64,000 nucleotides of DNA, from positions 620,001-684,000 of the forward strand of contig NZ_JAGQDG010000001.1 of NCBI RefSeq assembly GCF_018069865.1, written 5' to 3'. The notes under the pieces are model-generated. The model searched no databases. It saw only the letters and a program-made list of their open reading frames with translations, and was not told where the DNA came from. Both the position numbers and the translations under genes were made by a program. This DNA is from Ideonella paludis (GTDB lineage: Bacteria; Pseudomonadota; Gammaproteobacteria; Burkholderiales; Burkholderiaceae_C). Positions 43,775 through 62,833 of the stretch are shown piece by piece. Each line of letters opens with the position of its first letter. Positions within the stretch are counted from its first letter, which is position 1.

Positions 43775-44452
43775 ATGATCACGCTGTGTGGATTTGCGGT
43801 GTCCAACTACTACAACAAGATCAAGCTGGTCTTGCTGGAAAAGGGCATTCCCTTCACCGAAGAAGTGGTGATGACCAACAGCAAAGATGAGGCGGTGCTG
43901 GCGGCTTCGCCGCTGGGCAAAATTCCTTTCATTCGGACCCCTGAAGGCACGCTGTGCGAGAGCAGCGTGATTGCTGAGTACCTGGAGGAGCTGCAGCCGC
44001 AGCCCAGCTTGCTGCCCGGCTCCGCGCTGCAGCGCGGCAAGGTGCGCGAGCTGTGCACCTTTGTGGACCTGCACCTGGAGCTGGTGGTGCGCGAGCTGTA
44101 TGCCCAGGCCTTTTTTGGCGGCACGGTCAGCGAAGGCACGCAGGCCCGCGTCAAGCGCCAGTTGGAGAAGAACATTCCGGCCTTCCAGCGCCTGGCGAAG
44201 TTCGGCCCTTATGTGGCGGGCGACACCTTCACCCTGGCCGATTGCGCGGCTTATGTGAGCCTGCCGCTGGTGGCCATGGCCACCAAGACGGTCTTGGGCA
44301 GCGACATGCTGGCGGACGCCGGCGTGGACTGGAAGGGCTACGTCAAGCTCCTGGGCGAGCGGCCCAGCGTGCAGCGTGTAGCGGCCGACCGCAAGGCCGC
44401 GCAAGATGCGCAGATCGCAGCCATCAAGGCGAAGGCGGCAGCGGGCGGCTGA
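43775..44452 (+). CDS. glutathione S-transferase
   Basis: A 225-residue GST. N-domain: MITLCGFAVSNYYNKIKLVL, then PLGKIPFIRTPEGTLCESSVIAEYLEE with the cis-Pro and the ES glutathione site. C-domain: GPYVAGDTFTLADCAAYVSL carrying the N-capping Asp. An Ala/Lys-rich tail ends the protein. TCAGGAG precedes the ATG at 43775. The last 29 nt overlap the convergent DUF418 gene. Confidence 0.92.
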   Translation: MITLCGFAVSNYYNKIKLVLLEKGIPFTEEVVMTNSKDEAVLAASPLGKIPFIRTPEGTLCESSVIAEYLEELQPQPSLLPGSALQRGKVRELCTFVDLHLELVVRELYAQAFFGGTVSEGTQARVKRQLEKNIPAFQRLAKFGPYVAGDTFTLADCAAYVSLPLVAMATKTVLGSDMLADAGVDWKGYVKLLGERPSVQRVAADRKAAQDAQIAAIKAKAAAGG

Positions 44453-45623
44453 GCCAGCGCTGCATCAAGGCCTCCAGCGGGCCGGTGGGGTGGCGTGCCA
44501 GCCACCACCGTGCGCCCGCCAACTGCAGCCCATAGACCAGCCCGGCAGCACCCAGGGTCTGGGCCAGCGTGAGCTGGCCAACCCAGCCTAAACCGTAGCC
44601 GGTGAAGAGCAGGGCGCAGATCAGGGACTGGCTCAAGTACAGCGTCAGACTCATGCGGCCAGCCTGAGCCAGGGGTCGCAAAAAGGCCGGGGCTTGGGGC
44701 TGCTGCTCGGCGCGGGCCATCAGCCAGATGTAGGCGCCGCTGAGCGCCGGGCCCAAGGCCACCAAGGCCCAAACCCCGATGAGTTGGGTGAGGCCATCCG
44801 TCGCCACCATGCCGCGCGCATAGAGCCAGGCGCCCAGGACACCGAGACTGCCCAAGAGCAGGCCTCGCCGCAAGGGCCACGCGCCAAGGCTGGCGCGCAA
44901 CCCACCCGACAGGGCCACGGCACTGCCCAGCAGCATCCACATCAAGGTGCTGGGGAACTGCAGCAGCAGCAAGTTAGGCAGCGCATCGACCCAGTCCACC
45001 ACCCTCTGTTGATGCATGCGCCAACCCCCTTCACTCAGGGCCAGTTGGGCCGTGTGGGCTTGGGCCAGTGCTTGCTCAAACTCCTTTGCGCTCGGCGCTG
45101 CAGCCAGCTCGCCCATGGCGCTGACGGCGACCGCGATGGCGCCATAGACCACGGCCAGCATCAGCCACAGGCCAATGGCCACCTTGATGCGCCGCGTCAC
45201 CGGCCAATCACGCCATCGCAGCAGCACGGCGCCCAGCACCCCATAGGTCAGCAGCACATCACCTGGAAACAGCAGCGTGCCATGCAACAGCCCCAGCGCC
45301 AGCAAGGCCCACTGGCGCCGCCGAGCCTTGGATACCGCCACAGGTGTTGCATTCACCCCCAACTGCAGCACCAAGCTGTAACCAAACAAGAAAGAGAACA
45401 AGGGGTAGAACTTGCCCTCAAAGAACAGGCTGATGAGCCAGCGGCAGGCCACATCCCAGTCCCCCACAAAGCTGGGCTCGGGCAGACCCCGCCATTGGTA
45501 GGCGGATGAGAACCACTGGATGTTGACGACCAAGATGCCACCCAGGGCCAAGCCTCGCAAGGCATCCAGCCCCCACTGGCGCGAGGGGGTGGTGGGTGAG
45601 GCAGAAGGGGAGGAGTCCTTCAT
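44424..45623 (-). CDS. DUF418 family membrane protein
   Basis: A 399-residue membrane protein with about ten helices. The N-terminus GLDALRGLALGGILVVNIQW is the DUF418/YeiB opening (LDxLRGxALxGIxxVN). FFEGKFYPLFSFLFGYSLVLQ follows, and the C-terminal part GRMSLTLYLSQSLICALLF is the acyltransferase-3-like conserved GRxaLTnYlxqS segment. Function is unknown; a transporter or acyl transfer role is proposed for relatives. The start at 45623 is preferred over 45653. It overlaps the GST gene tail to tail. Confidence 0.88.
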   Translation of the reverse strand: MKDSSPSASPTTPSRQWGLDALRGLALGGILVVNIQWFSSAYQWRGLPEPSFVGDWDVACRWLISLFFEGKFYPLFSFLFGYSLVLQLGVNATPVAVSKARRRQWALLALGLLHGTLLFPGDVLLTYGVLGAVLLRWRDWPVTRRIKVAIGLWLMLAVVYGAIAVAVSAMGELAAAPSAKEFEQALAQAHTAQLALSEGGWRMHQQRVVDWVDALPNLLLLQFPSTLMWMLLGSAVALSGGLRASLGAWPLRRGLLLGSLGVLGAWLYARGMVATDGLTQLIGVWALVALGPALSGAYIWLMARAEQQPQAPAFLRPLAQAGRMSLTLYLSQSLICALLFTGYGLGWVGQLTLAQTLGAAGLVYGLQLAGARWWLARHPTGPLEALMQRWLSRPLPPSP

Positions 45624-45877
45624 GACAAGCTCAAGGCTATGCACATCGTGCACATGCTCGCATGACTGGGAAAGGAAATATTTGTACGGACACTAGACAA
45701 AATGAACCGTTTGGTTCTACATTTGAACTTATCAGTTCACTTGCAGACGACGGGATCAAATTTTCTCGATGAGCAGCGTGCAACTTGTCACATTTTGGAG
45801 AAGCTGGTGATGGAACTTCAGGGTAGAAACGCGGTCAATCCCTTGTGGGTTGGGTTTCAGCGTTCCGGCGCTGGCCC

Positions 45878-45906
45878 CAGTTTCGGTAGTGCGACTGCCG
45901 AAACTG
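45878..45906 (+). terminator. Strong hairpin followed by TCTTCCTT, attenuator-like
   Basis: CAGTTTCGG pairs perfectly with CCGAAACTG; inside it a T-G wobble and AGT/ACT extend the stem to 13 positions around a GCG loop. A pyrimidine-rich TCTTCCTT follows directly, as in intrinsic terminators read rightward. It lies about 150 nt upstream of the FAD-oxidoreductase gene. Confidence 0.55.
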
Positions 45907-45914
45907 TCTTCCTT

Positions 45915-46004
45915 GAACTGCGTGGCGAGCCAGGTGATCTGGCACTCCGGGAGCGACTCTCCTCCTCCCTCCCTCCTCTTTGCGCCCCGGGGGCCACGCA
46001 GTTC
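45915..46004. repeat. 12-bp long-range inverted repeat in operon leader
   Basis: GAACTGCGTGGC (45915-45926) and its exact complement GCCACGCAGTTC (45993-46004) enclose 66 nt containing a C/T-rich tract. In RNA the arms would close a large loop ending about 50 nt before the start codon at 46054. It begins 9 nt after the hairpin above. Confidence 0.65.
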
Positions 46005-46053
46005 CTTTCTATTCCGCGCCAAGCTTGCGCAGCCTTCATGACCGGAGGCTGCC

Positions 46054-47391
46054 ATGCTTGACGCTCGCCGCCGTGTCGCCATCGTGGGCTCGGGCATCTC
46101 GGGCCTGGGTGTGGCCTGGGCCCTGCGTCAGCGAGCCCCCAACACCGAGGTCGTGCTGTTTGAAGCAGGCACTCACTTTGGCGGTCACGCCCACACGGTA
46201 GACGTGACCCTGCCTGGCCCCCAAGGGCCGGTGACGCATGGGGTCGATGTCGGCTTCTTGGTGTTCAACGAGCGCACCTACCCCCGCCTGATCCAACTCT
46301 TCGCCGACCTGGGCGTGCCGACGGCTGCGTCGGACATGTCCTTCTCGGTGCAGGCGCCGGCCGGTGGCCTGGAGTGGAGTGGCTCAAACTTGAACAGCGT
46401 GTTTGCGCAACGCAGCAATTTGTTCAAGCCGCGTTTTTGGCACATGCTGCGCGACATCCTGCGCTTCAACAAGCTCACCACGGCCCTGGCCGAGGCGGGC
46501 CAGGATGAAGCCATGGCCGAGCCCATCGAGGCCTTTTTGCAGCGCCACCGCTTTGGCCAAGCCTTTCAGCAGGGCTATCTGCTGCCCATGATTGCCTGCA
46601 TCTGGTCCTGCCCAACGGAGCAAATGCTGCGCTTCCCGGTGGGGACCTTGATCCGCTTCTGCCACAACCACGGCCTGCTGCAGGTGCAGAACCGGCCGCA
46701 GTGGTTCACCGTGGCCGGGGGCTCGCGGGAGTATGTGCGCCGCATCATTGCGGCCGTGCCCGATGCCCGCTTGAACTGCCCCGTGCATGCCGTGCGCCGC
46801 TTGCCGCCAGGCCAAGGCCAAGCCGGCGTGGCGGTGAGCAGTGCACGCGGCACCGAGGTGTTTGACGACGTGGTGCTGGCCTGCCATGCGCCCCAAGCCC
46901 TGGCCTTGTTGACCGACGCCACCGCCCGCGAGCGCGAGGTGCTCGGAGCCTTGCGGACCCAGCCCAACCGCGCCGTGCTGCACACCGACACCCGACTGCT
47001 GCCACAGCGCCAGCTCGCCTGGGCCGCCTGGAACTACGAGCGCGGCCAGACGCCGGACCAAGAAGGCCGCCAAGTCTGCCTGCACTACCTGATCAACAAG
47101 CTACAGCCCCTGCCCTGGCAGCAGCCCGTGGTGGTCAGCTTGAACCCGGTGCGCGAGCCCGCCCGCGAGACCGTGCTGGCCGAGTTCGACGTGGCCCATC
47201 CCGTGTTCGACCTGGCTGCCATTGCCGCCCAGGCCCAAGTGCCCCGCCTGCAAGGCCAGTCCCATGTCTGGTTCAGCGGCGCTTGGACGCGCTACGGCTT
47301 CCATGAAGACGGTTTGCGTGCAGCCCAGTTGGTGGCCGAGGGCTTGCTCAAGCAATGGTCTGAGCAAGCCGCCCCCAGGGCCAGCGCATGA
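46054..47391 (+). CDS. NAD(P)/FAD-dependent oxidoreductase (amine-oxidase-like) of lipid cluster
   Basis: A 445-residue flavoprotein. The dinucleotide-binding start is RVAIVGSGISGLGVAWALRQ, then VVLFEAGTHFGGHAHTVDV (the Glu binding the ribose and the GGH segment), and GVDVGFLVFNERTYPRL. The C-terminal FAD contact is VWFSGAWTRYGFHEDGLRAA. This is the subgroup found with DUF1365 and Cfa-type methyltransferases, where it is thought to desaturate or otherwise oxidise an acyl chain. GGAGG precedes the start. First gene of the operon; the stop overlaps DUF1365 by 4 nt. Confidence 0.92.
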   Translation: MLDARRRVAIVGSGISGLGVAWALRQRAPNTEVVLFEAGTHFGGHAHTVDVTLPGPQGPVTHGVDVGFLVFNERTYPRLIQLFADLGVPTAASDMSFSVQAPAGGLEWSGSNLNSVFAQRSNLFKPRFWHMLRDILRFNKLTTALAEAGQDEAMAEPIEAFLQRHRFGQAFQQGYLLPMIACIWSCPTEQMLRFPVGTLIRFCHNHGLLQVQNRPQWFTVAGGSREYVRRIIAAVPDARLNCPVHAVRRLPPGQGQAGVAVSSARGTEVFDDVVLACHAPQALALLTDATAREREVLGALRTQPNRAVLHTDTRLLPQRQLAWAAWNYERGQTPDQEGRQVCLHYLINKLQPLPWQQPVVVSLNPVREPARETVLAEFDVAHPVFDLAAIAAQAQVPRLQGQSHVWFSGAWTRYGFHEDGLRAAQLVAEGLLKQWSEQAAPRASA

Positions 47392-48236
47392 GCACGATGA
47401 GCGCCAAGCCGGTGAAAGCCCTGTTGGGCTGGGGCGAGGTGTTGCACACCCGCCTGCGGCCGGTGCGGCATGCCTTTCGTTACCCCACCTTCTTTCTGAT
47501 GCTGCCCATGCGCGCCTGGCGTGCGCAGGGTTCAGCGCTCACCGCACTGGCGCGCAACCGGGCCGCCTGGGTCAGCTTTCATGATGCCGACCATGGCGAC
47601 GGCGGCCCCGACAGCCTGGCGTGGTTGGAGCAATTGTTGGCGCGCGAAGGGGTTCACGATGCTGACGGCGAAGTCTGGCTGCAGTGCTTTCCGCGCGTGC
47701 TGGGCTATGCCTTCAAGCCGGTGAGCTTTTGGTACTGCCACGCTGCCGGCGGTGATCTGCGTGCCATCGTCGCCGAGGTGCATAACACCTTTGGTGAGCG
47801 TCACAGCTATCTGCTGCATGGCGACAACCTGGGCTTTGGCCGAGAGATGACGGCCCGCAAGGTCTTTCATGTCTCGCCGTTTTGCCAGGTCGAGGGCGGC
47901 TATCGCTTTGCCTTCATGCGCACGGATGTGCGCCCAAGCCACCGGCCCGAGGCCCGCTGCGTGGTTCGCATCACCCACGACGACGCCCAAGGCCCGCTGG
48001 TGGTCACCAGCATGAGTGGCCAGCTTCAGCCCCTGACGGCGGCCGCCCTGCGCCAAGCCGTCTGGGCCATGCCCATGCTCAGCCTGGGCATCACCGCCCG
48101 CATCCATTGGCAAGCCTTGCGCCTGTGGCTCAAGCGCGTGCCCTTCTTCACCAAGCCCGCACCGCCCACGGTTGCCGTCACGCACATGCAGCCTGCGGGC
48201 CTCTCCCCCACACACCCTTCAGTGACATCGCCATGA
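47388..48236 (+). CDS. DUF1365 domain-containing protein
   Basis: A 282-residue DUF1365 protein. Conserved phrases are GEVLHTRLRPVRHAFRYPTF, then LQCFPRVLGYAFKPVSFWYC, VAEVHNTFGERHSYLL, ARKVFHVSPFCQVEGGYRF and the C-terminal ITARIHWQALRLWLKRVPFF. Its role is unproven; it almost always lies next to the FAD oxidoreductase and cyclopropane-type methyltransferase, as here, with ATGA overlaps on both sides. Confidence 0.93.
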   Translation: MSTMSAKPVKALLGWGEVLHTRLRPVRHAFRYPTFFLMLPMRAWRAQGSALTALARNRAAWVSFHDADHGDGGPDSLAWLEQLLAREGVHDADGEVWLQCFPRVLGYAFKPVSFWYCHAAGGDLRAIVAEVHNTFGERHSYLLHGDNLGFGREMTARKVFHVSPFCQVEGGYRFAFMRTDVRPSHRPEARCVVRITHDDAQGPLVVTSMSGQLQPLTAAALRQAVWAMPMLSLGITARIHWQALRLWLKRVPFFTKPAPPTVAVTHMQPAGLSPTHPSVTSP

Positions 48237-49474
48237 ACACTGCCACCCACTCCAGCGCCCTTTCCGGTGGCGCCGTGCCCACCCGCATTCCGCCCGCTGC
48301 CAAGCAGGTCTTGCGCCTGCTGCAGCGCCTCTCCATCGGCACGCTGGACCTGCAAGGCCCGGACGGCGAGCAATGGCACTTTGGCAGCGGCGCCGAAGAC
48401 CAGCCCCGCGCCGCCCTGCGCCTGGCCGACTGGAGCGTGTGCAGCGCCGTGATGAAGTCCGGCGATGTGGGCTTTGGCGAGGCCTATATCGAAGGCCAAT
48501 GGAGCACGCCCGACCTGGCCGCCCTGCTGCGCCTGTTCTTGGCCAACCGCGAGGCCCTGGAAGAGGCGCTCTACGGCAGTTGGTGGGGCTCGCTCTTGCA
48601 TCGGGTGCGCCACCTGCTGCGCCGCAACTCCAAGGCCGGCAGCCGCCGCAACATCCACGCCCATTACGACCTGGGCAACCCGTTTTATCGCCTGTGGCTG
48701 GACGAGACCATGAACTACTCGTCAGCCTGGTTCCAGGGCGACCACACCCGGCCACTGGCCGACGCCCAACGCGCCAAGATGCAACGCGCCTTGGACGAAT
48801 GCCGCCTGCAGCCTGGCCAGCAGGTGCTGGAGATCGGCTGCGGCTGGGGTGCCGTGGCCGAGCTGGCCACCCAAAGCGCGGGTGTCAAGTTGACGGGCGT
48901 GACGCTGTCCACCGAACAACTGGCCTTTGCCCAAGCCCGCTTGGCCGCCACCGGCCACGGCGAGCGCGCCGATTTGCGCCTGCAAGACTACCGCGACATC
49001 ACTGAAAAAGACTTCGACGCGGTGGTCTCCATCGAGATGTTTGAAGCCGTGGGTCGCGAGTACTGGCCGCAGTTCTTCGAGACCGTGCGCAGCAAGCTCA
49101 AGGTCGGCGGCAAGGCCTGCATCCAGACCATCACCATCCGCGACGACCTGTTCGAGCGCTATGTGCGCGGCACCGACTTCATCCAGCAATACATCTTCCC
49201 CGGCGGCCTGCTGCCTTGCCCCAAGGCCTTCCGTGAAGCGGCCCAAAAGGCCGGCCTGAAGGTGGTCAACGAGCTGTCCTTCGGCCCCGACTATGCCGAG
49301 ACCCTGCGCCGCTGGCGGCATGACTTTTTGGCCCAAGAAGCACCGCTGCTGCAAATGGGCTACGACGCCCGCTTCCAGCGCCTGTGGGAGTTCTATCTGG
49401 CCTATTGCGAAGCCGCCTTTGATGCCGGCTCCACCAGCGTGATGCAGTTCACCTTGAGCCGCGAGGCCGCCTGA
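48233..49474 (+). CDS. cfa: cyclopropane-fatty-acyl-phospholipid synthase-family methyltransferase
   Basis: SAM-dependent methyltransferase acting on unsaturated acyl chains of phospholipids; 413 residues. An N-terminal lipid-binding domain (MKSGDVGFGEAYIEGQWSTP) precedes the catalytic domain: HYDLGNPFYRLWLDETMNYS, then the SAM loop QVLEIGCGWGAVAELAT near residue 200, GVTLSTEQLAFAQAR, and VSIEMFEAVGREYWPQFF. The C-terminal YLAYCEAAFDAGSTSVMQF is normal. It could make cyclopropane or methyl-branched (furan-precursor) fatty acids; context favours the stress-linked paralogue group. The ATG at 48233 overlaps the preceding stop. Confidence 0.92.
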   Translation: MNTATHSSALSGGAVPTRIPPAAKQVLRLLQRLSIGTLDLQGPDGEQWHFGSGAEDQPRAALRLADWSVCSAVMKSGDVGFGEAYIEGQWSTPDLAALLRLFLANREALEEALYGSWWGSLLHRVRHLLRRNSKAGSRRNIHAHYDLGNPFYRLWLDETMNYSSAWFQGDHTRPLADAQRAKMQRALDECRLQPGQQVLEIGCGWGAVAELATQSAGVKLTGVTLSTEQLAFAQARLAATGHGERADLRLQDYRDITEKDFDAVVSIEMFEAVGREYWPQFFETVRSKLKVGGKACIQTITIRDDLFERYVRGTDFIQQYIFPGGLLPCPKAFREAAQKAGLKVVNELSFGPDYAETLRRWRHDFLAQEAPLLQMGYDARFQRLWEFYLAYCEAAFDAGSTSVMQFTLSREAA

Positions 49475-50070
49475 TGTCCTCCGCCCTGCGCCATCGCCGA
49501 TGGGTCAGCGCCGGCCTGATGCTGGGCCTGATGTTGAGTGTGATGCTGGGGGGCCTGCTGCTGTCGCCCCTCAGCGCGCGGGCACAGGACAAGGCACCTG
49601 CGGCCCCCGCCGAGGTGCGCCAGCTCTGGCCCACACCGCACCTGCAAGGGCAGGCGCGGCTGCGCTTTATTGGCCTGCACATTTATGACATCCGGCTGTG
49701 GTTGCAAGAGCCCTTGCGCGGCGGCGCCTGGGCCCAGCAGCCGCTGGCCTTGGAGATCGCCTACGCCCGCAACCTGGACGGCTTGAAGATCGCCGAGCGC
49801 TCGCTGACGGAGATGCAGCGTGGCGGCCCCATCGACGAGGCCACGTCGGCACGCTGGCTGGCCGAGATGAAGCGCCTCTTCCCCAATGTCAAAGGGGGCG
49901 ACCGCATCACTGGTGTTTTTCAACCGGGCCAAGCGGCTGCGTTTTTGCACAACGGGCGGCCGTTGGGTGAGGTGCGCGATGCCCGTTTCGCCCAGGCTTT
50001 TTTCGGCATCTGGCTGGCTCCGCACAGCTCCGAGCCCCAGATGCGCGAGCAACTGCTGGGTGCGCCATGA
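49474..50070 (+). CDS. chalcone isomerase-like secreted protein
   Basis: A 198-residue protein with a hydrophobic leader (LMLGLMLSVMLGGLLLSPLSARAQ), then a chalcone-isomerase-like beta/alpha fold: RLRFIGLHIYDIRLWLQEPL, LALEIAYARNLDGLKIAERS, MKRLFPNVKGGDRITGVFQP, and ARFAQAFFGIWLAPHSSEPQ. Bacterial members of this family bind fatty acids and are exported. Its start overlaps the cfa stop as TGATG and its stop overlaps the MFS start, so it is a core member of the operon. Confidence 0.87.
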   Translation: MSSALRHRRWVSAGLMLGLMLSVMLGGLLLSPLSARAQDKAPAAPAEVRQLWPTPHLQGQARLRFIGLHIYDIRLWLQEPLRGGAWAQQPLALEIAYARNLDGLKIAERSLTEMQRGGPIDEATSARWLAEMKRLFPNVKGGDRITGVFQPGQAAAFLHNGRPLGEVRDARFAQAFFGIWLAPHSSEPQMREQLLGAP

Positions 50071-51389
50071 GCAACCCCAGTGCGGCCGCGCTGAAAGGCG
50101 GCCTCCAAACCGCTGACGCGGCACGCCCATTGCACGGCGTGCAGGGCTTGGCCTACGGCGCACTGGGCCTGCCCTTGGCCTTTGTGGCCCTGCCTCTGAC
50201 CGTCCACCTGCCCGAGCACTATGCGCGCGAGTTGGGTGTGCCCTTGGCCACCGTGGGCGCGCTGCTGCTGGCCGTGCGCGCCACCGACGCCATCTCCGAC
50301 CCCTGGCTGGGCCGTTGGGCTGACCAGCTGCTGCGCCAAGCGCAGCCGCTGCGCTTGAGCCTGGTGTTGCTGCTGGCTGCGGCCCTGCTGGCCTTCAGTC
50401 TGTGGGGCTTGTTCAGCCCGCCCGCAGCGCTGCTGGCCGCCAGCGCCCAGGGCGATGCGACCGGCCTGCTGGCCTGGGCCGCGGGCTTGCTCTTGGTGGC
50501 TTATCTGGCCTATAGCTTTTTGACCGTGCTGCACCAGGCCTGGGGCACGGGCCTCGGGGCCTCTGAGCCGGCGCAGGCGCGGGTGGTGGCGTGGCGCGAA
50601 GGTGCCGCACTGGTGGGTGTCGTGGTGGCCAGCGTCTTGCCCAGCGTGTGGGGCGTGAGCGCTTTGGGGCCGGTGGTGGCGGTGCTGCTGCTGTTGGCCC
50701 TGGCTGGCCTGTGGTGGGCGCCGCGCCCGCAAACCGTGCCCCTGCTGAAGCAAGCACGCGCGCTGTGGGCGCCCTGGCGTGATGGGCGCTTTCGGCGCCT
50801 GCTGGGCATCTATCTGGTCAATGGCGTGGCCAGCGCGATTCCTGCCACCTTGCTGCTGTTCTATTTGCGGGACAGGCTGCAAGCGCCCGAGGCTCAAGCC
50901 ATGAGCCTGGCGCTGTACTTCTGTGCGGCGGCGCTGTCCTTGCCCGTGTGGGTCAAGCTGGTCAGCCGCATGGGCTTGGCCCAGGGCTGGCTGCTGGGCA
51001 TGGGCTTGGCCATCGTCGCCTTCATCGGCGCCTCGGTCTTGGGCCCCGGCGATGTGGCCTGGTTTGGGGCGATCTGCGTGGCCAGCGGCCTGGCCCTGGG
51101 AGCCGACATCACCGCCGCCCCCGCGCTGCTGGCCCGCCTGAAGGGCGACGCCACCACCGAGGCCGAAGACGCCGGCTTGCGCTTTGGCTGGTGGAACCTG
51201 GTCACCAAGCTCAACCTTGCGCTGGCCGCCGGCCTGGCCTTGCCGCTGCTGCAGTGGTGGGGCTATCAACCCGGTGTGGTCAGCGCCCAGGGCGCCACCG
51301 CGCTGGCCTTGATGTATGGGCTGTTGCCCTGCCTGCTCAAGGCCTGCGCTGCGGGCCTGCTCTACCTGCTTTGGATCCGCAAGGAATGA
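50067..51389 (+). CDS. MFS / glycoside-pentoside-hexuronide-type transporter
   Basis: A 440-residue membrane protein with about twelve helices. Near the N-terminus it shows LAYGALGLPLAFVALPLTVH and AVRATDAISDPWLGRWAD, the latter matching the DPxxGxxxD loop of GPH/MelB transporters. FGWWNLVTKLNLALAAGLAL lies near the end. In related stress clusters such a transporter sits beside cfa-like genes; substrate unknown, perhaps a lipid. Both ends are coupled to neighbours by short overlaps. Confidence 0.88.
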   Translation: MSNPSAAALKGGLQTADAARPLHGVQGLAYGALGLPLAFVALPLTVHLPEHYARELGVPLATVGALLLAVRATDAISDPWLGRWADQLLRQAQPLRLSLVLLLAAALLAFSLWGLFSPPAALLAASAQGDATGLLAWAAGLLLVAYLAYSFLTVLHQAWGTGLGASEPAQARVVAWREGAALVGVVVASVLPSVWGVSALGPVVAVLLLLALAGLWWAPRPQTVPLLKQARALWAPWRDGRFRRLLGIYLVNGVASAIPATLLLFYLRDRLQAPEAQAMSLALYFCAAALSLPVWVKLVSRMGLAQGWLLGMGLAIVAFIGASVLGPGDVAWFGAICVASGLALGADITAAPALLARLKGDATTEAEDAGLRFGWWNLVTKLNLALAAGLALPLLQWWGYQPGVVSAQGATALALMYGLLPCLLKACAAGLLYLLWIRKE

Positions 51390-51394
51390 CGATC

Positions 51395-51955
51395 ATGACG
51401 ACACCATCGCTCTCCTCCTCCACCCGCCGCCGCCGCCTCAGCCTGGGGCTGCTGAGCCTGCCGCTGCTGCTGGCCGGCTGCGCCTCACCCACACCGGCAG
51501 ACTACGCCAGCCAAACCCCCACCCTGGACCTGCGGCGCTACTTCGATGGCCCGCTCACGGCCCACGGCATCTTCACCGACCGCTCGGGCCAAGTCGTCAA
51601 GCGCTTCACCGTGGCGCTCAAAGGCACCTGGAATGGCCCGCAAGGCGTGCTGGAAGAAGACTTCGTCTACAGCGATGGCCAAACCCAACGCCGCGTTTGG
51701 CGCCTGACCGACCTGGGCGGGGGCCGCTGGGAAGGCCGCGCCGACGATGTGGTGGGCGTGGCCCAAGGCCAAGCCGCCGGCAATGCGCTGAACTGGCGCT
51801 ACACCCTGGCCCTGCCGGTGGACGGCAAGGTCTGGGAGGTTCAATTTGATGACTGGATGTTCCTCGTGGACCAGAAAGTCATGCTCAACCGAGCCCGCAT
51901 GAGCAAGTTCGGCATCACGCTGGGGGAAGTCACCCTCAGCTTCACCAAGCCCTGA
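51395..51955 (+). CDS. DUF3833 family lipoprotein
   Basis: A 186-residue outer-membrane-type lipoprotein. The lipobox LLLAGC is followed by ASPTPADYASQTPTLDLRRY, then FDGPLTAHGIFTDRSGQVVK, EDFVYSDGQTQRRVWRL and DDWMFLVDQKVMLNRA. This is the full DUF3833 pattern. AAGGA at 51381-51385 suits the ATG at 51395 (9-nt spacing) better than the ATG at 51386 that overlaps the MFS stop. A conserved partner of the cfa/DUF1365 gene set. Confidence 0.92.
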   Translation: MTTPSLSSSTRRRRLSLGLLSLPLLLAGCASPTPADYASQTPTLDLRRYFDGPLTAHGIFTDRSGQVVKRFTVALKGTWNGPQGVLEEDFVYSDGQTQRRVWRLTDLGGGRWEGRADDVVGVAQGQAAGNALNWRYTLALPVDGKVWEVQFDDWMFLVDQKVMLNRARMSKFGITLGEVTLSFTKP

Positions 51956-51998
51956 TCAGCACCCGCTGCCCATCACCGATCTTCACCTGGCGCGCATC

Positions 51999-52784
51999 AT
52001 GCCCATGAACCCCAAAATGTCCGATTGGCGAGGCCGCGTGGTCTGGCTGGTGGGCGCCTCCACCGGCATTGGCCGGGCGGTGGCCAGCAGCCTGCATGCG
52101 CAAGGGGCCACGGTGATCGTTTCGGCCCGCCAAGCGGCCGCGCTGCAAGCCTTTGAAGCCGCCCACCCGGGCAGCCACGGCTTGGTGTTGGATGTGACCG
52201 ACCGCGCCGCGACCCAAGCCGCGGCTGAGCGCGTGGTGCACGACCATGGCGGGCTGGACCTGGTGCTGTTTTGCGCCGGCACCTACACCCCCATGTCGGC
52301 GCGGCAGTTGAACCTGGACGTGGCCCTGCGCCACGAAGCCGTGAACGTGGGCGGGGCTTGGCATGTCTTGGGCGCCGTGCTCCCCACGCTGCTAGCCCAG
52401 GCCGCCCAAGGCCGCGGCGGCCACCTCAGCCTGGTGGCCAGCGTGGCGGGCTACCGCGCCTTGCCCAATGCCTTGGCCTACGGTCCGACCAAAGCCGCCT
52501 TGATCCACATGGCCGAATCTCTACACCTGGAGTTGAGCCCCTTGGGTTTGGGCATTTCTGTCATCAACCCCGGCTTTGTGGACACGCCGCTGACCGCGCA
52601 AAACGGCTTTCGCATGCCGGCCCTGATCACCCCCGAAGAAGCCGCCAGCGAGATGCTCAAAGGCTGGGCTCGGGGCGACTTTGAGGTGCACTTTCCGCGC
52701 CGCTTCACCCTGCTGCTCAAGGCCCTGCGCATGGTCCCCCAAGCCCTCTATGAAAGCCTGGTCCGCCGCGCGACCGGGCACTGA
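51999..52784 (+). CDS. short-chain dehydrogenase/reductase
   Basis: NAD(P)-dependent SDR, 261 residues. The cofactor loop is VWLVGASTGIGRAVAS (TGxxxGIG type), LVLDVTDR supplies the adenine contact, and the active site is LVASVAGYRALPNALAYGPTKAALI with Ser, Tyr (YGPTK) and Lys intact. INPGFVDTPLT follows. ATG at 52005 or 52017 (MSDWRG) are alternative starts. It lies in the lipid cluster and may process the modified acyl chain or a fatty aldehyde. Confidence 0.92.
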   Translation: MPMNPKMSDWRGRVVWLVGASTGIGRAVASSLHAQGATVIVSARQAAALQAFEAAHPGSHGLVLDVTDRAATQAAAERVVHDHGGLDLVLFCAGTYTPMSARQLNLDVALRHEAVNVGGAWHVLGAVLPTLLAQAAQGRGGHLSLVASVAGYRALPNALAYGPTKAALIHMAESLHLELSPLGLGISVINPGFVDTPLTAQNGFRMPALITPEEAASEMLKGWARGDFEVHFPRRFTLLLKALRMVPQALYESLVRRATGH

Positions 52785-52797
52785 AGCCATCGCACCT

Positions 52798-53265
52798 ATG
52801 CCCACTTCCTCAAGCCCCCGCACGGTGCTGAGCACCCGGCCGCACGCCGACCCTCGGGTCGAGCGCGTGCTGCAGTTCTATGAAAACCTGCAGCCCAGCG
52901 ACCTGGCCACGCTGGACCGCATCTACGAGGAACAAGCCCGCTTCAAAGACCCGTTCAACGAGGTGCAAGGCATCCCCGCCATCCGCCACATCTTTGGTCA
53001 TATGTTCGAGGTGCTGCAAGCACCGCGCTTCGTGATGCTGGACGTGATGGCCGAGGGCGATCAATGCATGCTCACCTGGGACTTCCACTTCGGCCGCGAC
53101 GGCAAGCTGTGGTTGATCCACGGTGCCAGCCACCTGCGCTTTGGCACTGATGGCCGCATCAGCCTACACCGCGACTACTGGGACGCTGCCGAAGAGCTCT
53201 ATGAAAAGCTGCCGGTGGTAGGCCCGCTGATGCGCTGGCTCAAGCGGCAAGCAGGCGCGCATTGA
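52798..53265 (+). CDS. SnoaL-like / nuclear transport factor 2 family protein
   Basis: A 155-residue NTF2-fold protein. RVERVLQFYENLQPSDLATL opens, then DRIYEEQARFKDPFNEVQGI, IRHIFGHMFEVLQAPRFVML, LTWDFHFGRDGKLWLIHGAS, and SLHRDYWDAAEELYEKLPVV. The YxxxarFkDPFnevxG pattern and the HrDYWDaaeElY ending are typical of the partner found in sigma-E/ChrR-linked clusters. Last gene of the operon. The frame upstream to 52681 lies inside the SDR gene and is rejected. Confidence 0.9.
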   Translation: MPTSSSPRTVLSTRPHADPRVERVLQFYENLQPSDLATLDRIYEEQARFKDPFNEVQGIPAIRHIFGHMFEVLQAPRFVMLDVMAEGDQCMLTWDFHFGRDGKLWLIHGASHLRFGTDGRISLHRDYWDAAEELYEKLPVVGPLMRWLKRQAGAH

Positions 53266-60941: not shown

Positions 60942-61508
60942 ATGTCCTCACCCGCTGTTGATCGCCGCGCCGAAGTGCTGGCCCATTCCCGGGCCTTGCT
61001 GCGCACGCGTGGCTTCAATGCCTTCAGCCACCGAGACTTGGCAGCCTTGGTCGGTGTCAAGTCTTCCTCCGTTCATTACCACTTCCCCACCAAAGAGGAT
61101 ATTGGCTTGGCTTTGGTGGCGGAGTACCGCGCGGAAGTGATGGGCTTGCTGTCCTCTCTGGAGGGCCTGCCTGTCGCCCAGCGCCTGGACCGGTTCACGC
61201 GCTTGTTTTCAGAAGCCGCCGCCCACGGCGACCAATGGTGCGTGGCTGGCATGTTGGCCAGCGACTTCGAGACCTTGGGCGACGGCCTGCAGAGCGAGGT
61301 ACGGCGCTTTTTCAACGAAGTTGAAGCTTGGCTGGCGGCGCAAGCCCGCCTGCTTCAACCGCAGCTCAAGCCTGCTGCCGCGCTGCGCTTGGGCAAGACG
61401 GCCATGGCCATGCTGGAGGGCGCTTTGCTGCTGGCCCGCAGCCAGGGCGAGCCCCAGCGCGTGGCCCATGCGGCCGAGTCTTTGAAGCTCTTGTTGGGCG
61501 TCGAGTGA
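60942..61508 (+). CDS. TetR-family transcriptional regulator
   Basis: A 188-residue TetR protein. The HTH covers about residues 8-55: VLAHSRALLRTRGFNAFSHR, DLAALVGVKSSSVHYHFPTK, EDIGLALVAEYRAE. The C-terminal helical domain holds the ligand pocket and a dimer helix (RLGKTAMAMLEGALLLARSQ). Matching operators lie in front of its own gene and in front of the cupin-SDR genes, so it probably represses both. The ligand is unknown. Confidence 0.92.
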   Translation: MSSPAVDRRAEVLAHSRALLRTRGFNAFSHRDLAALVGVKSSSVHYHFPTKEDIGLALVAEYRAEVMGLLSSLEGLPVAQRLDRFTRLFSEAAAHGDQWCVAGMLASDFETLGDGLQSEVRRFFNEVEAWLAAQARLLQPQLKPAAALRLGKTAMAMLEGALLLARSQGEPQRVAHAAESLKLLLGVE

Positions 61509-61554
61509 GGCACGGAAGGTGCTCCACCATACCTCCCCTTTTTTTGCGCCCAAC

Positions 61555-61572
61555 ATCTATCTATCGATAGAT
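61555..61572. promoter_or_regulatory. TetR operator, copy 2 (upstream of cupin gene)
   Basis: ATCTATC-TATC-GATAGAT, including a 14-bp perfect palindrome ATCTATCGATAGAT (61559-61572), 50 nt upstream of the cupin start. It is identical in both 7-bp arms to the site before tetR. Confidence 0.85.
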
Positions 61573-61622
61573 ACCTATTCTGAGATTTATCTTTTTCCTC
61601 ACCTGACTAAAGGAGTCATTCC

Positions 61623-62054
61623 ATGTTGAAACGAATCACCGCTGCACTCGCCTTGACGGCTGTCGCCACCTTGGCACAGGCCCAAGACGGCCATGTCTTC
61701 AAGCTGGATCAAGTGGCCTGGCAACCCGCGGGCCTGAAAGGTGCCGAGATGGCAGTGCTGTGGGGCGATGAAGCCAAGGGCAACGCGGTGTGGGCTTTCC
61801 GTCTGCAGCCCGGCGTCGCCATCCCGCCGCACCTCCACACCAAAGACTATTGGGGCTTCGCCATCCAAGGCCAGTGGGCCCATATCGACGGACACGGCCA
61901 CACGGTGGTGACCGGACAAGATGCTTTTGTGCGCATCCGCGCCAATGAGCTGCATGCCGACCGCTGCGTCGGCCCGCAGGCCTGCATCAACATCATCCAG
62001 TTCGACGGCAGCCGGGACATCGTGTTTCCAGAGGCTCCGAAGAAAGCGCCTTGA
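61623..62054 (+). CDS. cupin domain-containing secreted protein (DUF4437-like)
   Basis: A 143-residue protein with signal peptide MLKRITAALALTAVATLAQA. The cupin core has PPHLHTKDYWGFAIQGQWAH and a second-strand pair NELHADRCVG, with the histidines expected for metal binding (HLH and ELH). Periplasmic cupins of this type are mostly uncharacterised. AAAGGAG precedes it. TetR-controlled with the SDR that follows. Confidence 0.85.
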   Translation: MLKRITAALALTAVATLAQAQDGHVFKLDQVAWQPAGLKGAEMAVLWGDEAKGNAVWAFRLQPGVAIPPHLHTKDYWGFAIQGQWAHIDGHGHTVVTGQDAFVRIRANELHADRCVGPQACINIIQFDGSRDIVFPEAPKKAP

Positions 62055-62107
62055 CGGCGCCGGCCGCCATTGAAAAGTCCCCGTCGTCTGACCCACTGGA
62101 GAAAGCC

Positions 62108-62833
62108 ATGTCGATTGAACAAAACTTTAAGCATCAACACGTCGTGATCACTGGCGGCTCCAGTGGCATTGGGCTGTGCCTGGCCCAGGACTTGGCCCAG
62201 CGGGGTGCCCGCTTGACCCTGGTGGGCCGAGACGCCGACAAGCTGTCGCAGGCCGCAGCGCAAGTCCAAGGGCCGGTGCAGGTGGCCAGTGTCGACGTCA
62301 GCGACGAGCAGGCCGTGGCGGACTTCTTCGGCCAGTTAGGCCCGCTGGATCACCTGGTCACCGCCGCTGCCGGGACGGTGCGCGGCAACGTCGTGGACTT
62401 GCCAGTCTCTCAGGCTCGGGCTTTGTTCGAGAGCAAGTACTGGGGCCAATACCACTGCGCCAAGTACGCCGCCGCGCAGTTAGCGGCGCGGGGGTCCGTG
62501 GTGCTGTTCTCAGGCTGGATCAGTCGCAAGCCCATGGCTGGAGTGTCCACCTTGGCCGCCGTCGATGCCGCCATTGAGGCCCTGGGGCGCACCTTGGCTT
62601 TGGAACTAGCACCGCGCCGCGTCAACGTGGTGACGCCTGGGATGATTAACACCCCGCTCTGGAATGCACGCCTGGGGGCGGCAGCGCAGCAGGCCCACTT
62701 CGACAAGGTGGGGCAGTCACTGCCTGTCGGACGTGCTGGCGCGCCTCAAGACGTGGCCCATGCCGTGCGGTTTCTGTTGGAGAACGGCTTTACGACCGGC
62801 GCGGTCATTGACGTCGATGGCGGACAGCGGTGA
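62108..62833 (+). CDS. SDR-fold protein lacking catalytic Tyr and Lys
   Basis: A 241-residue Rossmann protein. The cofactor loop VVITGGSSGIGLCLAQDLAQ and adenine contact VASVDVSD are intact, as is the late segment VNVVTPGMINTPLW and the C-terminal TGAVIDVDGGQR. At the active site, however, Ser135 (LFSGWIS) is kept while the YxxxK dyad is replaced by L149-x3-D153 (TLAAVDAAIEALG). It may be a non-classical SDR using other residues, or a binding or regulatory protein. GGAGAAA supports the ATG at 62108. Coupled to the cupin gene under TetR control. Confidence 0.85.
   Translation: MSIEQNFKHQHVVITGGSSGIGLCLAQDLAQRGARLTLVGRDADKLSQAAAQVQGPVQVASVDVSDEQAVADFFGQLGPLDHLVTAAAGTVRGNVVDLPVSQARALFESKYWGQYHCAKYAAAQLAARGSVVLFSGWISRKPMAGVSTLAAVDAAIEALGRTLALELAPRRVNVVTPGMINTPLWNARLGAAAQQAHFDKVGQSLPVGRAGAPQDVAHAVRFLLENGFTTGAVIDVDGGQR

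Follow-up and report, generated by a model that had tools for sequence, protein, structure and literature searches.

The stretch of Ideonella paludis DNA analysed here (the window; 64 kb, positions 620001–684000 of contig C11, in a 4.80-Mb genome of 22 contigs that is listed as 100% complete) carries an eight-gene operon on the forward strand at 46054–53265, which is predicted to direct the synthesis of furan fatty acids. Upstream of it lie a candidate operator for a TetR-type repressor encoded on another contig and a conserved structured RNA. All of the evidence is computational. An earlier note on this DNA had described the operon and its domains; the genes stand where it placed them, and every named domain was recovered from the open reading frame (ORF) translations and Pfam. 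The first five genes are joined by overlaps of 4, 4, 1 and 4 nucleotides (nt), as the note had also said, and the later gaps are 5, 43 and 13 nt. A divergent DUF418 gene lies upstream and a convergent SRAP gene downstream, in agreement with the note's statement that no rpoE or chrR is adjacent. The genes are as follows.

46054–47391, + strand: ufaD homolog, flavin adenine dinucleotide (FAD)-dependent amine-oxidase family, predicted methyl-fatty-acyl desaturase (Pfam NAD_binding_8 and Amino_oxidase; position matches RPA2571)
47388–48236, + strand: ufaO homolog, DUF1365, predicted furan-ring-forming oxygenase (Pfam DUF1365, 3.8e-79)
48233–49474, + strand: ufaM homolog, S-adenosylmethionine-dependent methyltransferase of the CMAS family (Pfam CMAS, 7.3e-83)
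49474–50070, + strand: Chalcone_3 (chalcone-isomerase-like) gene (Pfam, 2.4e-12; found in 65 of 70 complete relatives)
50067–51389, + strand: MFS_2/GPH-type transporter, likely counterpart of RSP_1089 (Pfam MFS_2, 1.3e-38)
51395–51955, + strand: DUF3833 putative lipoprotein, LLLAGCAS near the N terminus (Pfam, 4.3e-71; ATG at 51395 read from the sequence)
51999–52784, + strand: short-chain dehydrogenase/reductase (SDR), likely counterpart of RSP_1087 (Pfam adh_short, 2.5e-34)
52798–53265, + strand: SnoaL_2-like gene (Pfam, 2.2e-18)

The first three genes belong to the ufaD, ufaO and ufaM families and follow the order of Rhodopseudomonas palustris, an assignment made from domains and gene order, with no direct comparison to the Rhodobacter proteins. 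In R. palustris, RPA2571-2570-2569 (ufaD-ufaO-ufaM) are sufficient for 9M5-FuFA synthesis (PMC7380195). UfaM methylates cis-vaccenate within phospholipids, UfaD then desaturates the product, and UfaO, which carries DUF1365, is required for the step that adds O2-derived oxygen to the furan ring (PMC7380195); the demonstrated role of UfaO in this pathway corrects the note's remark that DUF1365 has no proven role. The ufa genes of Rhodobacter sphaeroides (RSP_1091, 1090 and 2144) encode the same enzyme families. Genes 1–3 of the window very probably encode the enzymes of the furan-fatty-acid pathway, and the product of the operon is probably furan fatty acids with a protective role.

The remaining genes have counterparts in R. 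sphaeroides. RSP_1089, annotated as a GPH-family symporter, is listed in the RpoE regulon (PMC7074977, Table 1) and lies in the R. sphaeroides operon, which indicates that the MFS/GPH transporter, regarded in the note as an added gene, belongs to the old gene set; the window protein matches the TIGR00792 (gph) model at 1.5e-15, under that model's cut-off. RSP_1088 would correspond to the DUF3833 gene, judging from its annotation ('lipoprotein', P. syringae counterpart) and the equal length of 186 amino acids. Deletion of RSP1087, 1088 or 1089 left the fatty acids without detectable change (PMC7380195), and the R. sphaeroides lipid genes feed back on RpoE activation (PMC7074977). Unlike in R. 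palustris and R. sphaeroides, the ufaDOM, GPH transporter, DUF3833, SDR, chalcone-isomerase-like and SnoaL genes here form one operon, the product of which is predicted.

A contig scan with the DUF1365 protein returned at least 571 relatives, and the best 80, nearly all Burkholderiales by title, were kept. Among the 70 of these with sufficient flanking sequence, ufaD-ufaO-ufaM stood in order in every locus and all eight genes stood in the window order in 60. The eight-gene order and the absence of sigma/anti-sigma neighbours are ordinary for the lineage; what is not ordinary at this locus is the replacement regulatory wiring and the RNA. One close relative (L115, genome G004) matches only residues 1–266 of ufaD and 173–282 of ufaO, adjacent to each other, which reflects either an internal deletion or an assembly fault. 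By reading, a glutathione-peroxidase-like gene lies directly 5' of ufaD at some loci that lack the RNA (L045, L046, L058 and others like them); the RpoE2 regulon of Shewanella includes a glutathione peroxidase gene (PMC4336711).

In gene content the operon corresponds to the RpoE-ChrR singlet-oxygen regulon (PMC5507510, Table 2; PMC7074977, Table 1), which bears out the note's comparison with sigma-E/ChrR photooxidative loci. No protein of the I. paludis genome exceeded the cut-off of the ChrR model TIGR02451, the best match reaching 32.5 bits against a cut-off of 124.5 and covering only the cupin part, whereas the positive control, Caulobacter, gave matches over the cut-off. In a search covering 50 of the 80 loci except L035, none of the 49 ufa-bearing relatives' genomes contained a ChrR over the cut-off (sub-threshold matches in 24), indicating that the absent pair is the rule in this group. 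Judging by locus numbers, the sigma and anti-sigma genes are likewise separated from the lipid genes in P. syringae, V. cholerae and Shewanella, so that non-adjacency alone is unremarkable. Contrary to the note's reading, the missing pair is not special to this locus. In addition, the ChrR-type promoter TGATCC-N-CGTA, described for P. syringae (PMC5507510) and also for Shewanella (PMC4336711), had no exact match with a spacing of N15/17 within the 64-kb window. We conclude that RpoE-ChrR no longer runs the operon in this bacterium and that control has moved.

The note had suggested that control moved to the structured leader or to a distant sigma factor. The move itself stands; the leader is not specific to the operon, and the best candidate regulator is a TetR protein encoded on another contig. 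The genome-wide search for rpoE-chrR, which the note had called for, yielded no ChrR over the cut-off and an ORF reading as RpoE beside RseA. PF12973 gave three cupins as candidates for ChrR, and the best (C11:897015) was rejected because it is a cupin on its own, encoded behind an FAD oxidase gene, in which no further domain was found. At this place (L004:6860–8678; G000:C11:895859–897677), the FAD amine oxidase gene and the ChrR-like cupin gene lie upstream of a DJ-1/PfpI gene. Another stand-alone ChrR-type cupin (Cupin_7 match) occurs in the window at about 60942–62833, where a second TetR gene, the cupin and an SDR stand in a row by reading; TCTATC/GATAGA repeats precede the cupin and the second TetR gene and could be the operator of that TetR.

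The region upstream of ufaD contains a promoter-like sequence and a candidate operator.

45694–45723, + strand: sigma70-like promoter TAGACA-18-TACATT (9 of 12 consensus matches; 1 found versus a mean of 0.1 in shuffles)
45724–45739, no strand: perfect palindrome TGAACTTATCAGTTCA, candidate TetR operator directly 3' of the -10 box (two perfect genomic copies)

A perfect palindrome TGAACTTATCAGTTCA is not expected by chance in 64 kb. When the whole genome was searched with up to one mismatch, TGAACTTATCAGTTCA was found in two places, both perfect (45724–45739 and C15:536674–536689). The second copy lies midway, with about 90 nt on each side, between a TetR gene (C15:535972–536580) and a divergent fasciclin gene. 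The TetR protein encoded there (TetR_N) is the ortholog, 61% identical, of a TetR protein that flanks ufaD in relatives; at L078 and L085, the TetR protein is divergent from ufaD and the shared interval holds TGAACTCATCAGTTCA.

Orthologs of the TetR protein were found in 39 of the 49 relatives' genomes (E ≤ 1e-20, one each), and the own locus and the best 30 of the orthologs made up a survey of 31 loci. The palindrome, allowing two mismatches within 400 nt upstream of tetR, occurred at 8 of the 31 loci compared to 0 of 539 control segments. The divergent gene at these eight loci was fasciclin-like in seven and ufaD in one (the L078 genome), and the fasciclin-like genes of six palindrome-bearing relatives were 25–42% identical to that of I. 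paludis over the best nearby stretch. L136, L146 and L156 have the divergent fasciclin gene and a decayed site with 3–5 mismatches. Upstream of ufaD, the palindrome occurred in 7 of 76 relatives, in addition to the window, compared to 0 of 1262 control segments. L139, L140 and L143 have more than one fasciclin-like stretch beside the TetR gene, which looks like a tandem arrangement. A second shared motif, ACCGNTTGGT, was discarded as too weak (3/79 versus 4/701 control segments).

Both the Beta-Ig-H3/fasciclin gene RSP_1409 and RSP_1087-1091 are listed for the R. sphaeroides RpoE regulon (PMC7074977), so that one operator now joins two pieces of that regulon. Compared to R. sphaeroides, where the ufa and fasciclin genes are both members of the RpoE-ChrR regulon, no ChrR and no TGATCC/CGTA promoter are present here, and a TetR-type palindrome joins both loci instead. 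Part of the RpoE-ChrR singlet-oxygen regulon thus appears to have passed to a TetR repressor.

Several observations weigh against this reading. A reversed control pattern of TGAACTTATCAGTTCA also gave one genomic place at up to one mismatch. The TetR gene is common (39/49), so that its presence alone says little, and the palindrome before ufaD, found in only 7 of 76 relatives, is a minority arrangement. Four of those seven (L011, L013, L024 and L048) have no site at tetR within two mismatches, and at L087 a related TetR flanks ufaD without the palindrome. On balance, the pattern of sites makes TetR control of the operon a likely, although qualified, proposal.

Between the palindrome and ufaD lies the second element of interest. 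The leader region folds better than chance (z -4.3), as the earlier note had anticipated in speaking of a structured leader, and contains the following features.

45812–45839, + strand: sigmaE (RpoE/RseA)-type promoter-like sequence GGAACTT-N15-GTCAAT (one base off the common -10)
45846–46013, + strand: predicted small RNA, 5' hairpin 45878–45906 and core (start placed from the promoter)
45909–46013, + strand: three-way-junction core, P1 arms 45915–45926 and 45993–46004 (model R1, 72.8 bits, E 3.4e-17; covariation)
45956–45981, + strand: C/U-rich loop of helix P3, which holds CUCCUCCUCCCUCCCUCC, anti-Shine-Dalgarno type (unpaired in the consensus fold)

The consensus, built from 39 sequences, is a three-way junction with helices P1 (10 pairs), P2 (4) and P3 (10) and a U-rich tract 3' of P1. 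Changes on both sides with pairing kept were seen for 22 of the 24 pairs, and the covariation was 0.596 compared to 0.273 in shuffled alignments. The proportion of alignment cells that pair was 94.2%, compared to 76.9% when shuffled and 39.7–47.3% when slid. Rfam gave no match at the gathering score for the window region 45500–46300 or for seven relatives; the only matches in 45500–46300 were two weak ones on the other strand (E 0.57 and 0.78). These results indicate that the predicted RNA is a well-supported structured family without an Rfam match found here.

The covariance model found one copy of the RNA in each of 51 of 81 sources, directly upstream of ufaD and always on the coding strand. 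Under strict filters, the RNA was present once per genome in 31 of 60 genomes, comprising 31 of the 36 genomes of the same family (own included) and none of the 24 of other families. A class-wide search yielded 4 hits among 229: I. paludis itself, two further members of its family and G099, from a different family (E 4e-4); the G099 match was rejected because it looks like coding sequence. Of the 30 RNA copies that could be read in whole genomes, counting that of I. paludis, 15 lack a ufaD within 1.5 kb. A ufaO match at E ≤ 0.001 was missing from 10 of the 31 genomes that carry the RNA; one of these ten (G002) is only 80% complete. Conversely, 5 of the 36 family members have ufaO without an RNA match. 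The 15 copies away from ufaD, which were outside the model building, paired in 96.1% and showed changes on both sides for 20 of the 24 pairs, in an alignment fitted to the model. This distribution and the preservation of the structure in copies away from ufaD indicate that the RNA is independent of the operon; a first reading of the RNA as a ufa-specific leader was overturned by the copies and genomes without ufa. At L011, L120 and L121, the end of a glutathione S-transferase (GST)-like gene lies directly 5' of the RNA. The DUF418 gene of the window (44424–45653) sits between a GST gene and the RNA and, compared with these three loci, looks like a later insertion.

The RNA is preceded by a promoter motif of its own. 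Among 67 non-redundant loci (of 79), GGAACT was found within 170 nt upstream of the RNA in 50, compared to 2.4 in dinucleotide shuffles, and GGAACTT in 39, compared to 0.77. At fixed offsets in the 50 loci, T occurred at 23 (29/50), C at 24 (33/50) and A at 27 (37/50). The motif resembles GAACTT-16/17-TCCAAA, the form of RpoE promoter known from Shewanella, P. aeruginosa and E. coli (PMC4336711), which suggests a promoter of the RpoE/RseA type, not the ChrR type. The own genome encodes an RseA over the cut-off, beside ORFs reading as RpoE, RseB and a DegP-like protease. Most copies within the genus retain the 5' part, which holds GTGGGTTGGGT and two hairpins (motif in 12 of 15 copies), and GTGGGTTGGGT was found in none of 15 copies in other genera. 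The predicted length in the window is about 168 nt.

The P3 loop offers a hint as to how the RNA may act: it contains CCUCC, the core of the anti-Shine-Dalgarno sequence, left single-stranded in the consensus fold. By analogy, the RNA may repress translation through base-pairing and would be made in envelope stress. Some points count against a sigmaE-type small RNA. The -10 of the window, GTCAAT, lacks the A seen in 37 of 50 relatives; the strict pattern GGAACTT-N15/16-TCnnA has no match in the window and fails by one base; and the 5' hairpin at 45878–45906 with its tail scores terminator-like, so that the RNA could end early. Nor was such a motif found in the approximately 100 nt before the own rpoE, and the choice of sigma factor thus leans on the motif of other species. 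Taken together, the distribution and the promoter motif make a free-standing sigmaE-type small RNA likely.

The model set out here draws on computed results for the gene content, the lack of ChrR and of any LitR match, the pair of operator sites, the covariation of the RNA and the promoter motif shared by its relatives; the lipid product, repressor binding, inducing signal, RNA expression, sigma factor and targets are inferred. The TetR protein encoded at G000:C15:535972–536580 would bind TGAACTTATCAGTTCA just 3' of the sigma70-like promoter, about 330 bp upstream of ufaD, and would also bind the second TGAACTTATCAGTTCA between its own gene and the divergent fasciclin-domain gene. A signal, perhaps an oxidised lipid, would release TetR, and tetR, fasciclin and ufa would be induced together. 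UfaD, UfaO and UfaM would act on phospholipid acyl chains, with the five accessory proteins alongside. The long ufa transcript would read through the small-RNA gene; because transcripts from the TetR-controlled promoter must cross this gene to reach ufaD, the element could be both a leader and a separate RNA. Under envelope stress, sigmaE would drive transcription of the small RNA and might contribute to the ufa mRNA. We give a probability of about 0.68 to this model as a whole, namely a furan-lipid operon under a remote TetR repressor, with an autonomous sigmaE-type small-RNA gene between operator and ufaD.

Two alternatives concern the same intergenic region. The structured RNA may be a true cis-regulatory ufa leader, an attenuator or Shine-Dalgarno-sequestering switch, that exerts the main control. 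Its position directly upstream of ufaD on the coding strand and the U-rich tract after its last helix are in keeping with such a role, as is a further terminator-like hairpin before ufaD at 8 of 38 loci (near-duplicates left out), compared to 1 in base-shuffled sequences, although the window has no such hairpin. However, half of the readable copies have no ufaD nearby, ten RNA-bearing genomes have no ufaO match (the incomplete G002 among them), and the structure is equally well kept away from ufaD. Furthermore, in computed pairing the loop shows no clear preference for the ufaD start region over that of ufaO (median -7.2 versus -6.6 kcal/mol; 36 RNA loci, with starts placed for 35 each of ufaD and ufaO, 32 of the SDR gene and 1 to 20 of the rest). 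We consider a main leader control unlikely. Slightly less unlikely, but still improbable, is that the sigmaE (RpoE/RseA) promoter at 45812 is the main driver of an envelope-stress operon, with the TetR palindrome secondary. The strong enrichment of the motif upstream of the RNA and the RseA gene with its RpoE-, RseB- and DegP-like neighbours speak for it; the same motif precedes the RNA in genomes without adjoining ufaD, and therefore belongs to the RNA, and the eight loci with an extra terminator-like hairpin have it between the RNA and ufaD, which also tells against sigmaE as the driver.

Control by light and a different lipid product were weighed against the TetR model as well. A divergent MerR-B12 protein of the LitR/CarH type adjoins ufaD in 39 of the 76 relatives whose upstream flank spans 1.5 kb or more (4 of the 80 loci were dropped for short flanks; the LitR domains were taken from one representative). 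The palindrome TTGTCNNNGACAA (up to one mismatch within 1300 nt upstream) occurs at 26 of these 39 loci, compared to 2 of the 37 others and 5 of 1262 control segments, and in Pseudomonas ufaM is light-inducible in a LitR-dependent manner through a site differing from TTGTCNNNGACAA (PMC9758184). Light control thus seems likely in about half of the relatives. In the own genome, however, there is no LitR match at E ≤ 0.001, and the 1300 nt preceding ufaD contain no TTGTCNNNGACAA site, even with two mismatches allowed. A search by B12-binding domains gave five matches, one of which (L008) reads as an aminomutase subunit, and the LitR protein search gave 0. The idea that LitR and the RNA are mutually exclusive also proved false, LitR being present at 28 of the 50 loci with the RNA and at 11 of the 26 without it. 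The LitR/CarH-controlled clusters of Pseudomonas and of the LitR-flanked relatives share the enzymes with the window, and in many relatives the regulator is adjacent; here neither the regulator nor its type of site was found, and a distant B12 photoreceptor seems most improbable. As for the product, the methyltransferase falls in the CMAS family, as would be expected if the genes made cyclopropane or methyl-branched fatty acids. However, its scores against the NCBIfam cyclopropane-synthase models, 266 and 257 bits, fall well short of the respective cut-offs of 600 and 400, and its gene adjoins those of the UfaD and UfaO homologs in the arrangement that suffices for furan synthesis in R. palustris; a product other than furan lipids appears quite unlikely.

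The RNA can be compared to two known classes. The sigmaE-dependent small RNAs of E. coli and the anti-Shine-Dalgarno cuckoo/CcsR RNAs, the latter being short hairpins with a CCUCCUCCC-type loop that lie next to a DUF1127 gene, resemble it in its predicted promoter type and in a C/U-rich loop that mimics an anti-Shine-Dalgarno sequence. It differs from them in its three-way junction, its single copy per genome, its restriction to one family among the genomes searched and the lack of an Rfam match. Among the matches listed in searches of the open-licence PMC literature, no paper was recognised that had described the TetR repressor or the RNA. The fuller proposition, that TetR took over pieces of the regulon (furan lipids and fasciclin) and that the operon became threaded through an undescribed one-copy sigmaE anti-Shine-Dalgarno RNA gene, seems to us evenly poised.

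A membrane-protecting role is ascribed to furan fatty acids, and the locus bears on how their synthesis may be controlled in bacteria that lack ChrR. The same enzymes behind swapped regulators (ChrR, LitR and TetR) offer a natural comparison series, and the ligand of TetR could reveal the signal that calls for furan lipids. A beta-proteobacterial sigmaE-type anti-Shine-Dalgarno RNA would, if true, parallel the sigmaE RNAs of E. coli, and a single transcription unit would then combine the protection of membrane lipids with an envelope-stress RNA.

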